The notes beneath the pieces are model-generated. The model saw nothing but the letters and a program-made list of their open reading frames with translations. It was not told the origin of the DNA and searched no databases. A DNA stretch of 22,260 nucleotides from a virus: positions 1-22,260 of IMG/VR virus record IMGVR_UViG_3300035660_000003; one strand, written 5' to 3'. Every line of letters starts with the position of its first letter. Position 1 is the first letter of the stretch. Of this stretch, positions 3,237 to 17,723 are shown piece after piece. Both the position numbers and the translations under genes were made by a program.

Positions 3237-3664
3237 AATTCACAATCACTTTGACCAGAATATAATATTGTCTCTTCCTCGTCGTCTTCAACATCTATGA
3301 AAAATTTTTCCCAACATTCAGCATGATAATAATAATGCTTATTTCTTCGATGTCTCGAAACAACTTCTTGAGTCCAAGTTATACATTTCTTTGGAATAAC
3401 TCTTCCACAACCAGAGCATTTAAGAAGAACTGTTCGAGCCTTATCATCCCATTCAATGCCAGCAGAATAATCAGTTTTAATTCCGCATCGTGGACAAGTT
3501 CCAAATCCTTTAATTTCTATATCTTTTCCAAAATCATTATCAGAACTTCCAGATGGATGGAAAAGACAAGTATCAGATGCACATAATAATCTATCATCTT
3601 TGCACATTCCCCGTCCTTTCAAAATTGCTTTAACGTGTGGAGTTAATCTAAATCTCATCGTCAT
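3203..3664 (-). CDS. multi-cysteine zinc protein, unknown function
   Basis: This 153-residue protein is full of paired cysteines: C21, C28 and C33 near the start, CPRC (57-60), CSGC (83-86), a cysteine and histidine cluster around HYYYHAEC (110-117), and CELC (142-145). The pattern predicts two or three zinc ribbons. The third part has a PARP/LIM-like look (C...W..EVVSRHRRNKHYYYHAECWEKF), where a basic stretch precedes a His-x2-Cys knuckle. An acidic run (DVEDDEEE, 124-131) follows. It starts directly after the TAA of the RadA-like gene (TAAATG) and overlaps the HNH-like gene. Zinc ribbons inside a replication operon suggest nucleic-acid binding, but no family is recognised. Confidence 0.6.
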   Translation of the reverse strand: MTMRFRLTPHVKAILKGRGMCKDDRLLCASDTCLFHPSGSSDNDFGKDIEIKGFGTCPRCGIKTDYSAGIEWDDKARTVLLKCSGCGRVIPKKCITWTQEVVSRHRRNKHYYYHAECWEKFFIDVEDDEEETILYSGQSDCELCRLIKWAQRA

Positions 3665-4645
3665 TTATGATTCCTCTTCAGATGGTTGTTCTTCTCCTTC
3701 TGGAATTGGTTCACCCTTCTTTTTGCCTTCTATGTTTTCTTGTGCCTGCTTTTCAGCGAATTTTTCTTCCCTTTCTTTTAATGCCTTTGCAACTTTAGCG
3801 GAATCTGGCACGTTATCGATACCCTTCTCATTAATTAGAAATGCTCTTTCAGCCAATGCTGTATAACTTGAATCCATCATTTCCACAACTCTAACATTTC
3901 CAGTTGCCTTTCGGAAGAATAAGATAAAATCTGGCTGATGCTCTACTGAACGTCCACCGATTGGCATTTGAATATCCGACAATGATGCATATGGTGTAGC
4001 CACGGGTTTATCATAAATTTGAGTCGTATAAACAAGTGCCGCCTGATGCAAATCGGCTATTCTTTCAAGAGCCAAAACGAATTCTCTAATCAATCCGTTT
4101 TTGACTTGAACTGTTTCTCTTCCAAGAAATTCAACTCCTCGGAAGAGTTTCGATATGGAGTCACAAATTATCAAATCCACTTTCTCAGTATCCGATGGGG
4201 CTGGAAGACTTTGAATAATCATCATTTGTTCTATCCAAGATTTTGGTCTATAGTAAATGATTTTATCTCTAACGGATTCCCAATTTAATTGTCTGGCTTC
4301 GCATATCTGTTTCAACCGTTCAATTCTAAGACTTTTTTCAGGGTCGATATAAATTACTCTATTTGGACAAAGAACTGCCATAGTTAAACACGTTTGAGTT
4401 TTCCCAGAACGGAATGCACCATACATTAGAAGAGATTTGCCTTCTGGAATTCCGCCACTAATTATTTCATCAATTACCGTTCCAGTCTTAATTTTGATTT
4501 CTTTTGATTCTGATTCTTCCAATTCTTTTAAGGAGATTGGATTTAATGCATCTTTCTTCTTGTATCTATCGAGATATTCCTTGAAGAGTGCTCCTTTTTG
4601 TTTGACGAGAAGTTCCTTAACGTCCATAATTTCGTCGCCAGTCAT
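3665..4645 (-). CDS. RadA/RecA-family recombinase ATPase
   Basis: The 326-residue protein is a RecA-fold ATPase of the archaeal RadA/RadB type. It shows the entry motif TGTVIDEIISGGIPEGK (54-70), Walker A GAFRSGKT (76-83), a DPEKS strand end with E103, Walker B VDLIICDS (156-163), a YTTQIYDKP motif (about 206-214) matching the conserved Q of RecA family members, and GG before the second DNA loop. The N-terminal helix-hairpin-helix domain of cellular RadA is absent. The C-terminal 50 residues are low-complexity and highly charged (KEREEKFAEKQAQ... then an acidic tail), resembling a protein-recruiting tail. Its ATG overlaps the preceding stop (ATGA). By family knowledge it would form filaments on ssDNA for recombination-linked replication or repair. 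Confidence 0.85.
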   Translation of the reverse strand: MTGDEIMDVKELLVKQKGALFKEYLDRYKKKDALNPISLKELEESESKEIKIKTGTVIDEIISGGIPEGKSLLMYGAFRSGKTQTCLTMAVLCPNRVIYIDPEKSLRIERLKQICEARQLNWESVRDKIIYYRPKSWIEQMMIIQSLPAPSDTEKVDLIICDSISKLFRGVEFLGRETVQVKNGLIREFVLALERIADLHQAALVYTTQIYDKPVATPYASLSDIQMPIGGRSVEHQPDFILFFRKATGNVRVVEMMDSSYTALAERAFLINEKGIDNVPDSAKVAKALKEREEKFAEKQAQENIEGKKKGEPIPEGEEQPSEEES

Positions 4646-8560: not shown

Positions 8561-9441
8561 GTAATGCGGCTTACCCCGTCGGCTTGGACTACTGCGGCAT
8601 TTGCTCTTATGCTGGTTATGTAATACGTGTATGCCTTTGACTCGTAACGTTCGTTCTTGACTGTTAAGCGTCGCTTCCATGCCAGAATCACTACTGGTCC
8701 ATTTGAACCGTCAGATGGGAATACAATGAAAACGTAGCTTGAGTCTTTTAGATACGGTGTCTTCAAAACACGACATCCAGCAAACATGCCTGCTTCGCCT
8801 TCAACTATTCTACTTAGTTGAGCAGTTGTGTAGCGTCGTGCATCAACGAATGCAGTATCTTGCATCAAATAACTTGCTTCGATGGGACTCAAAATCAAGA
8901 ATGGTGCATTAACATCGTCTGCAATCCAGTTAAGATTTTCCATTTCAGCCAATGTATCCATGACTACACCGTAAGTTAAACTTGCCGCCGTAGTTTTAGT
9001 TGTGCTTCCAGCCGCTATAATGCTGTAAACTAGAGCATCAAGAAATTCCATGACAGCCGCACCCATGTTTCTTAGTTTCAATCTCACCCAATCTATTGAC
9101 GGATAATCTTCCATCAATATATCAGTAAATTCAACTGAACTATGAATAACCTTGGGGACGGTTAATGGGACCATTCCGATTGTTTTGGCGTGTGCAGCCG
9201 TGTAAGTTGCGTTAGACATTTCTGCTTCAGTTGAAGATTCGGCTACTAATGGAGTAGCTGTCATGAATTTGATGGTATAACCATCTTTTCCAATCAAACT
9301 AAAATCTTCTTTGACTATTTGCAGAAATGCAAGTGGTCGTCTCGCACCTTCAAGAACTTCGCTGTAAAGCAAATATGGAGCAAAATTGCCAGTTAAATCT
9401 GAGCCTGACAAGAGAGTTTCTTGTATTGTTATTTTTGTCAT
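8542..9441 (-). CDS. major capsid protein, HK97-fold type
   Basis: The 299-residue product has the organisation of HK97-like capsid proteins. An N-terminal arm (1-30) leads to an extended loop region (DFSLIGKDGYTIKFMTATPLVAESSTEAEMSN), a long spine helix (DWVRLKLRNMGAAVMEFLDALVYSIIAAG, about 117-145), and an A-domain with repeated strands (APFLILSPIEASYLM, MFAGCRVLKTPYL, SYVFIVFPSDGSNGPVVILAWKRRLTVKNERYESKAYTYYITSIRANAAVVQ). The closing strand pattern is characteristic. Its neighbours in transcription order (protease, scaffold, then capsid, then adaptor) match a head gene cluster. It has a dedicated promoter and is followed by a strong terminator hairpin, as expected for the most expressed gene. 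There is no long delta domain because a separate scaffold is encoded. Confidence 0.82.
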   Translation of the reverse strand: MTKITIQETLLSGSDLTGNFAPYLLYSEVLEGARRPLAFLQIVKEDFSLIGKDGYTIKFMTATPLVAESSTEAEMSNATYTAAHAKTIGMVPLTVPKVIHSSVEFTDILMEDYPSIDWVRLKLRNMGAAVMEFLDALVYSIIAAGSTTKTTAASLTYGVVMDTLAEMENLNWIADDVNAPFLILSPIEASYLMQDTAFVDARRYTTAQLSRIVEGEAGMFAGCRVLKTPYLKDSSYVFIVFPSDGSNGPVVILAWKRRLTVKNERYESKAYTYYITSIRANAAVVQADGVSRITISATP

Positions 9442-15592: not shown

Positions 15593-15608
15593 TTAATCAA
15601 TTGATTAA
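15593..15608. repeat. palindrome copy 1, TTAATCAATTGATTAA
   Basis: A perfect 16-bp palindrome, just upstream of the BRE/TATA of the metallophosphoesterase promoter. A candidate operator for a dimeric DNA-binding protein. Confidence 0.75.
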
Positions 15609-15881: not shown

Positions 15882-15893
15882 TCCGACATAACA

Positions 15894-15901
15894 TTTAAAT
15901 A
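15894..15901 (+). promoter_or_regulatory. TATA box of the 37-residue gene
   Basis: TTTAAATA is centred 25 bases before the ATG at 15922, so the predicted transcript begins at or next to the start codon (leaderless). It is preceded by palindrome copy 4. Confidence 0.55.
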
Positions 15902-15921
15902 TGAGTCTGCCCACTTTAATC

Positions 15922-16037: not shown

Positions 16038-16343
16038 TTAAAATAATTTTCTTTGAGTCACTTCGTCTTCAACGAGCATTTGACCGAGGCTTTTTGGTCT
16101 CAATTGTTTAATGTTTTCGATGATGCTCCATTCTGATGTTCCTTCGACAGGTTTAATCCATCCATTGATATTCATGATTCCCCAATACTTGTCCTTTGTT
16201 CTTGAGTCATTTCCAATTGCCTGATAATACGGAGTCATTTCAAATTCGAATTTGGTGGCAGATTTACGGTTATTTTGTTCTAGCCAATTTTTTAGTCCAC
16301 AAGCCAACTGCCAAGCCTTATAGTTACTGTTCAATTTTCTCAC
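16038..16343 (-). CDS. small protein, possible winged-helix DNA-binding protein
   Basis: The product is about 100 residues. Its pattern AWQLACGLKNWLEQNN, then TKFEFEMTPYYQAIGNDSRTKDKYWGIMNINGWIKP and TSEWSI, looks like helix, helix-turn-recognition helix and a beta wing (RTKDKYWGIMNINGWI, about 48-63), as in archaeal virus wHTH proteins. The start may be GTG (16343) or a TTG three codons later that has AGGTGAG at a suitable distance. It follows and overlaps the zinc-ribbon gene. It is the closest DNA-binding candidate to the palindrome array; whether it binds there is inference. Confidence 0.5.
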   Translation of the reverse strand: MRKLNSNYKAWQLACGLKNWLEQNNRKSATKFEFEMTPYYQAIGNDSRTKDKYWGIMNINGWIKPVEGTSEWSIIENIKQLRPKSLGQMLVEDEVTQRKLF

Positions 16344-16473
16344 CTGTCATAGTGAAACCACAATGATTGCATCGGTAACGTCTTTTTCTCCCTTGGAGTG
16401 TGCCTATGTATCCTAATTTCTGCATTCGTTCACTGCATTTGGAACATAATGGATTATCTAAATTTGGTTTCAT
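16324..16473 (-). CDS. short zinc-ribbon protein (49 aa)
   Basis: The product has a clean zinc ribbon: C10-SK-C13, a turn Q-K-L-G-Y-I-G, then R-Y-R-C35-NH-C38-G-F. This is the layout of the CPxCG...RYRCxxCG ribbons found in transposase helpers (InsA-like), transcription factors and virus regulators. The ATG has a model leader (AGTGATTAAA directly upstream) and a TATA box 34 bases before it. Its tail overlaps the start of the wHTH-like gene, so the two form a bicistron. A DNA- or RNA-binding regulator is likely; the exact target is unknown. Confidence 0.62.
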   Translation of the reverse strand: MKPNLDNPLCSKCSERMQKLGYIGTLQGRKRRYRCNHCGFTMTGEKIEQ

Positions 16474-16503
16474 TTTAATCACTAGAGAAGATACACACAC
16501 TCA

Positions 16504-16511
16504 TATTTAAA
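16504..16511 (-). promoter_or_regulatory. promoter of the zinc-ribbon / wHTH-like bicistron
   Basis: The minus strand reads CTTTAAATATGAG with the box centred about 34 bases before the ATG. The TTTAAATATGAG string is also used at 15894 on the plus strand. Confidence 0.55.
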
Positions 16512-16530
16512 GATTATGGTTTTGCCATCC

Positions 16531-16860
16531 TTTTTTAAAAAATTTTTGTGCGTGTGCAACATTTCAAATGAGCACGTTCGAACGAACGACAAGTAGAGTA
16601 GTCTCATTCGTTGCACTCACAGTAGAGACTCATTCGCACACAGAGACTCATGCACAGACTCATACACTCATACTCATTCATATATACAGCATAGCATAAC
16701 ACAGTCGCACAGCACAGCACAGACGAATTAAAAAGAACACATACACAATCACTAAAGTTCTACACGCACACGCAAACATCGCATAGCACACAACATAGCA
16801 CAGCACAGCCGACTACAATCACACCGCAAAGTTTAAATATCACAATCTCATAACAATAAT
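16531..16860. repeat. A+C-rich repetitive intergenic element with A-tract and palindrome
   Basis: This 392-base gap (16474-16865) has no convincing gene. It opens with a TTTTTTAAAAAATTTTT tract (16531-16547) and a CGTTCGAACG palindrome (16575-16584). From about 16600 the plus strand becomes poor in G and T and full of short imperfect repeats: GAGACTCAT/ACTCAT at 16605-16680, then CATAGCACA/CAGCACAG at 16685-16810. Such composition stands out against both neighbours. It could be a replication origin, a packaging start site, or an untranslated RNA. The last bases hold the zincin promoter. Confidence 0.6.
16824..16839 (+). promoter_or_regulatory. promoter of the zincin gene
   Basis: CACCGCAAAG leads into TTTAAATA (16832-16839), giving a predicted start about 4 bases before the ATG at 16866 and so a nearly leaderless mRNA. 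Confidence 0.58.
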
Positions 16861-16865
16861 AACAG

Positions 16866-17141
16866 ATGAAACCAATGCGACATCTCAAATTTAAATTTAT
16901 GTTACCTACAATATATGGCGGGATATTCTACCATCAAGAGAAGACCATATACATTTATGCCATAAATCTTCCCAAAGAGACTGAAGCAACCTTCGTTGAT
17001 GAGATTGAACAGTTAATCACTCATGAAGTGCTTCATGCCATTGTTTTAAAAGTTACAGGTTCAAGAACTGCTAATAAAATGGACAAAATATTCAAGAAAG
17101 TTTGGCATTGGGATGTAGAAGTATATAATCAACTCTATTAA
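16866..17141 (+). CDS. small HExxH zincin-like metalloprotein
   Basis: The 91-residue product carries a zincin helix, LITHEVLHAIVLK, with H53, E54 and H57 matching HExxH. It is preceded by two strands (IYGGIFYHQEKTIYIYAIN) and an acidic helix (VDEIEQL), the minimal layout of small gluzincin- or SprT-like domains. A third ligand may be among the C-terminal residues (KKVWHWDVEV). There is no signal peptide. Small zincins in viruses may process proteins or act in lysis, but the substrate cannot be read from sequence. The gene follows the A+C-rich element and has a near-leaderless promoter. Confidence 0.65.
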   Translation: MKPMRHLKFKFMLPTIYGGIFYHQEKTIYIYAINLPKETEATFVDEIEQLITHEVLHAIVLKVTGSRTANKMDKIFKKVWHWDVEVYNQLY

Positions 17142-17665: not shown

Positions 17666-17723
17666 TATTTAAGGTTATTCCTAAAGATTATCAATTTCTG
17701 TTAATCGCCATAAGATTTAAATA
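17666..17723. promoter_or_regulatory. divergent promoters: tail tube (-) and terminase operon (+)
   Basis: Minus strand: CTTAAATA at 17666-17673 for the tail tube gene, start predicted near 17643. Plus strand: TTTAAATA at 17716-17723, start predicted near 17749, for the terminase operon, whose first ATG (17766) has GGTGAG 8 bases upstream. Confidence 0.55.

Follow-up and report, generated by a model that had tools for sequence, protein, structure and literature searches.

The locus that is analysed here is an A+C-rich repeat tract in the virus record IMGVR_UViG_3300035660_000003 (112,412 bases), located in the stretch of DNA that we refer to as the window, i.e. bases 1-22260 of this record. 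The closest described systems are degenerate intergenic (CA)n/(TG)n DNA, the divergent archaeal-type promoter region, and the SPP1 pac site, which includes direct repeats (PMC4737164). With the first of these, the tract shares the dinucleotide periodicity, the purine/pyrimidine (R/Y) alternation, the imperfect, short even-unit repeats and the non-coding character, but it is very degraded, having no long, pure CA run, and it displays two successive word families and a strong strand bias. With the second, it shares opposite-strand TTTAAATA boxes, each located 34-38 nt 5' of its start codon, but the spacer between the boxes is here long (~320 bp) and compositionally biased. With the third, it shares non-coding repeats near terminase genes.

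The reading that we favour, to which we assign a probability of roughly 0.55, is that the tract is a decayed simple repeat that forms a non-coding, mostly untranscribed spacer between divergent virus promoters, with a role that is either passive or cis-regulatory.

Composition and periodicity of the tract

The tract and the elements that delimit it are listed below; the ranks of the TATA boxes refer to a matrix learned from this virus, with which ~225,000 positions have been ranked.

16475-16865, no strand: intergenic region that holds the tract, between divergent open reading frames (ORFs) of the ORF list
16600-16831, plus strand A+C-rich: degenerate CA-type repeat tract, recognised by its A+C content, alternation, periodicity and repeat excess
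16504-16511, minus strand: TATA box TTTAAATA of the leftward promoter (rank 38)
16832-16839, plus strand: TATA box TTTAAATA of the rightward promoter, at the end of the tract and 34 nt 5' of the ATG at 16866 (rank 55)

The genome's strongest R/Y-alternating windows and its strongest 2-bp-periodic windows are both located at the tract, where CA and AC together account for 87 of the 230 dinucleotides (38%). The imperfect repeats are of even length (8, 12 and 18 nt), and the eight lags at which the autocorrelation is strongest are even without exception (2, 18, 12, 10, 20, 14, 26 and 8); the identity at even lags exceeds that of dinucleotide shuffles for lags 8-23 (p 0.002-0.008) and is gone beyond lag 24, while the 2-bp periodicity spreads over the whole intergenic region. 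The even-lag periodicity, the R/Y alternation and the short range of the repeat register suggest a decayed simple repeat, either of the (CA)n type or with another short, even unit, that has acquired occasional odd indels.

The composition of the tract is extreme for this virus: the best 260-nt segment reaches 71.5% A+C, whereas 200 order-3 Markov simulations do not exceed 63.8%, and the most A+C-biased segment of this length in the whole 112-kb record lies in the tract. An earlier note on this DNA, made by a reader of the letters alone, had described a run almost without G or T; this wording is too strong, since the 266 bases at 16600-16865 have an A+C content of 70%, with 49 T and 32 G among them, and the tract contains none of the five longest runs in the window that lack G. 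The imperfect ACTCAT and CATAGCACAG-like repeats that the same note had pointed out are indeed present, and 38 repeated 7-mers occur in the tract, as opposed to 15.5 +/- 4.7 in its dinucleotide shuffles. No second copy of the tract occurs within its own genome. As a rough background, a tract of equal or greater strength is present in one of 48 unrelated viral stretches (441 kb), where it reads as a Thr-Pro-type repeat ORF.

Elsewhere in the record, a weaker intergenic A+C bias on the same strand is seen at ~8878-9080 of stretch L019 and ~3570-3770 of stretch L020 (~30.9 and 45.6 kb of the record), and the tracts with the strongest G+T bias (46.7 and 103.8 kb) fall inside ORFs. Two smaller elements that had been reported next to the tract have also been located:

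16531-16547, no strand: A/T run TTTTTTAAAAAATTTTT, one of ten runs of at least 17 in the genome
16575-16584, no strand: 10-bp palindrome CGTTCGAACG, a single copy in the record

Neither element stands out by number, perfect palindromes of at least 10 bp having a density of 1.1 per kb in this genome; the palindrome is unusual solely for its two CpG, a property of three such palindromes in the entire record.

The tract as a probable spacer between divergent promoters

The two flanking divergent promoters, which the earlier note overlooked, best explain the position of the tract: it occupies the space between the boxes at 16511 (minus strand) and 16832 (plus strand), and no TATA box of comparable score by the virus-derived matrix occurs within it. 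Since a good TATA box is lacking inside, the tract is probably untranscribed upstream DNA, and its function, if it has any, would most likely be spacing or cis-regulation. As a possible history, short repeats of the (CA)n type would have expanded by slippage, and point changes together with small indels would then have eroded them; the product would set the two TATA boxes ~320 bp apart and provide the rightward promoter with its upstream DNA. Position, flanking boxes, alternation and periodicity are the observed part of this account, from which we infer the slippage origin, the lack of transcription and the role as a spacer.

Certain properties of the locus weigh against this account. The base bias is one-sided on the plus strand, with 50 CA against 2 TG, and two distinct word families follow one another, the first ACTCAT-like and the second GCACAG-like; a one-sided bias and two kept word families could reflect selection. 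Moreover, the search for relatives has returned none in which turnover or decay of the repeat would show.

The outcome is mainly a negative one: the extreme composition near the terminase is accounted for by the position between divergent promoters and by the dinucleotide periodicity, and neither a packaging function nor an RNA function is needed. Among the options that the earlier note had offered, i.e. a packaging site, a replication element, a recombination-prone satellite and a structured RNA, the satellite comes closest, the part of it that is borne out being degenerate simple-sequence DNA with dinucleotide periodicity. If relatives appear and the turnover of the repeat proves to be rapid, the tract could be used as a marker of the virus lineage.

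Possible alternative roles of the tract

The recurrence of ACTCAT-type words at the TATA boxes 15894 (plus strand) and 16511 (minus strand) makes a binding array possible, in which a regulator, encoded by the virus or by its host, would act on the divergent promoters through the tract words AGACTCAT/ACTCAT and GCACAG as its sites: AGACTCAT is found in seven copies in the record, of which three lie in the tract and another at the strong box at 15894, and ACTCAT directly adjoins the box at 16511. The words are, however, irregularly spaced (18, 12, 8 and 6 nt; for GCACAG 55, 5, 5, 81 and 5 nt), in a manner that is neither helically phased nor iteron-like, and the evident dispersed palindrome of the virus does not occur in the tract, so that we treat such an array as a tentative and rather unlikely reading. 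A transcribed element that starts near the A/T run, whether an unstructured 5' leader, a small RNA or a 43-aa peptide gene (ORF 16568-16699), appears clearly improbable: this ORF begins with an ATG ~20 nt past the A/T run and spans the first repeat block, but it stops short of the far end of the tract, and the A/T run is a poor TATA box by the virus's own matrix (best rank 986, on the minus strand). No ORF longer than 44 aa is present in the tract on either strand, in line with the earlier remark that the repeats do not form a long gene. The suggestion of a structured RNA is not upheld, as neither strand of the tract folds better than shuffled sequence (z -0.33 on the plus strand and +1.59 on the minus strand) and a search of Rfam has returned no match up to E 5.

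A replication origin, or a recombination-dependent origin for which the virus would employ its RadA together with the G+T-rich strand, is a quite improbable alternative. In its favour, the tract sits where gene direction switches, the uncorrected keto skew over the record has its maximum at 16556, a RadA/Rad51-like protein is among the viral gene products, and RecA has a preference for TGG-repeat or TG-rich DNA (PMC3763553). Against it, the duplex stability is average: the tract is at the 49th percentile and the region preceding it at the 69th, compared to the 99.8th at 37.7 kb. The keto peak is caused in part by the tract itself; once gene orientation is removed, no skew extreme is found at the tract and the residual extremes of all four skews lie elsewhere, and the peak at 16556 has been rejected as an origin signal, being lost after this correction. 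A better candidate for the origin, as judged from sequence, is the widest intergenic region in this genome (record 37062-38492, L019 15062-16492). It contains several copies of the dispersed palindrome and, at 37692, the weakest of the duplexes tested (99.8th percentile); the residual GC skew has an extreme nearby, at 39.5 kb (p 0.015, uncorrected for the four skews tested). That the viral RadA would preferentially bind the G+T-rich strand, making the tract a site of programmed recombination or of recombination-dependent replication in an archaeal tailed virus, we regard as most unlikely of all. Very unlikely, too, is a packaging recognition site (pac or cos) of the virus terminase. In favour of such a site, the tract is non-coding, bears repeats, as does the SPP1 pac site, and is located ~1.4 kb from terL (18226), a distance that the earlier note had given to the terminase genes and that holds for the large subunit, the only one recognised. 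The place that corresponds to the SPP1 site, at the promoter or start of the small-terminase gene, would here be at ~17.6-17.8 kb, if the ORF before terL were the small terminase; the tract is displaced from there, being ~0.9 kb upstream of this ORF and away from its promoter and start, and its repeats are irregularly spaced. The same ORF has no small-terminase match, and its single-sequence model (pLDDT 75; beta strands and a long helical hairpin) has no PDB match at E 0.001. The record, as assembled, is circular and has its ends inside a gene, so that no end maps to the tract.

The virus, its neighbouring genes and its dispersed palindrome

The ORFs that stand first after the two promoters are the following:

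16324-16473, minus strand: 49-aa ORF whose two CxxC pairs look zinc-ribbon-like by eye, taken as a shorter reading of ORF 16324-16500
16866-17141, plus strand: 91-aa ORF with an HExxH motif, weakly SprT-like (E 0.017, which misses the Pfam cut-off)

The box at 16511 serves first the 49-aa CxxC ORF and then a 101-aa ORF, while the box at 16832 serves the 91-aa HExxH ORF. The unit that contains terL has its own strong TATA box at 17716 (rank 21), and hence the tract is not its promoter. As a separate observation, a 23-nt inverted repeat (87%), CATAACATTTAAATATGAGTCTG / CACACTCATATTTAAAGATTATG, is common to the TATA regions 15887-15909 and 16496-16518, in both of which the word ATGAGT follows the box directly; the two promoters are possibly under common control.

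More striking than the tract, and deserving of more attention, is a 16-bp palindrome, TTAATCARTTGATTAA, often found inside AGATTAATCAATTGATTAATCT, with 37 exact or near-exact sites in the 112-kb record, 35 of which are intergenic; a reversed-pattern control has given one match per strand. The sites of the window are located at 15593, 15636, 15741, 15866 and 21349, and the sites are densest at 30-56 kb of the record. Some copies lie beside or just after TATA boxes, although those within 60 nt of one (8 of the 37) are no more frequent than intergenic positions generally. The set looks like dispersed operator, stoperator-like or replication/partition sites, and paired copies have been found in no other IMG/VR record.

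The record itself carries a 127-bp direct terminal repeat (bases 1-127 of the window and the last 127 bases of stretch L023), and its ends fall within one gene, the ORF that is cut at base 1 resuming at the far end; because of these two properties, the assembly is probably circular and complete, at 112,285 bp. The products recognised in it are a large terminase, a major head protein, the RadA/Rad51-like protein, MCM, a family-B DNA polymerase and LonB, and its promoters are archaeal-type TTTAAATA boxes, mostly located 37-45 nt 5' of the start codon; this gene set and these promoters make it very probably an archaeal tailed virus. Its closest MCM proteins are scattered across many archaeal groups, at 31-40% identity.

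Our search for relatives has covered IMG/VR (with TerL, RadA, MCM and the capsid protein singly, an MCM alignment, and paired or single palindrome copies) and, with TerL, phages at E 1e-5 and 10, 50 MCM-bearing virus records, GTDB contigs, 11 archaeal genomes and 874 more (a Thermoplasmatota sample, the class of a Bathyarchaeota genome and an Asgard phylum). Neither IMG/VR nor the phage collection nor the sampled archaeal genomes have yielded a close relative, although some of these searches can reach close relatives only; the matches returned are confined to remote terminases and MCMs or to single, scattered copies of the palindrome. The alignment of distant TerL proteins contains no stretch that is fit to search with, and the DNA of the tract has no convincing relative among phages, the best match (E 0.1) covering the A/T run alone.

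Two further parts of the record carry genes of note. In stretch L021 (12852-14468, minus strand), a 538-aa protein matches the Toprim domain of Topo VI subunit A/Spo11 (Pfam E 8e-9), which is unusual cargo for a virus. In stretch L022 (12419-14521 and 2326-10816, both on the minus strand), a LonB-type protease is found with nearby ORFs that include a glycosyltransferase, which suggests host-derived genes of metabolism or surface modification.
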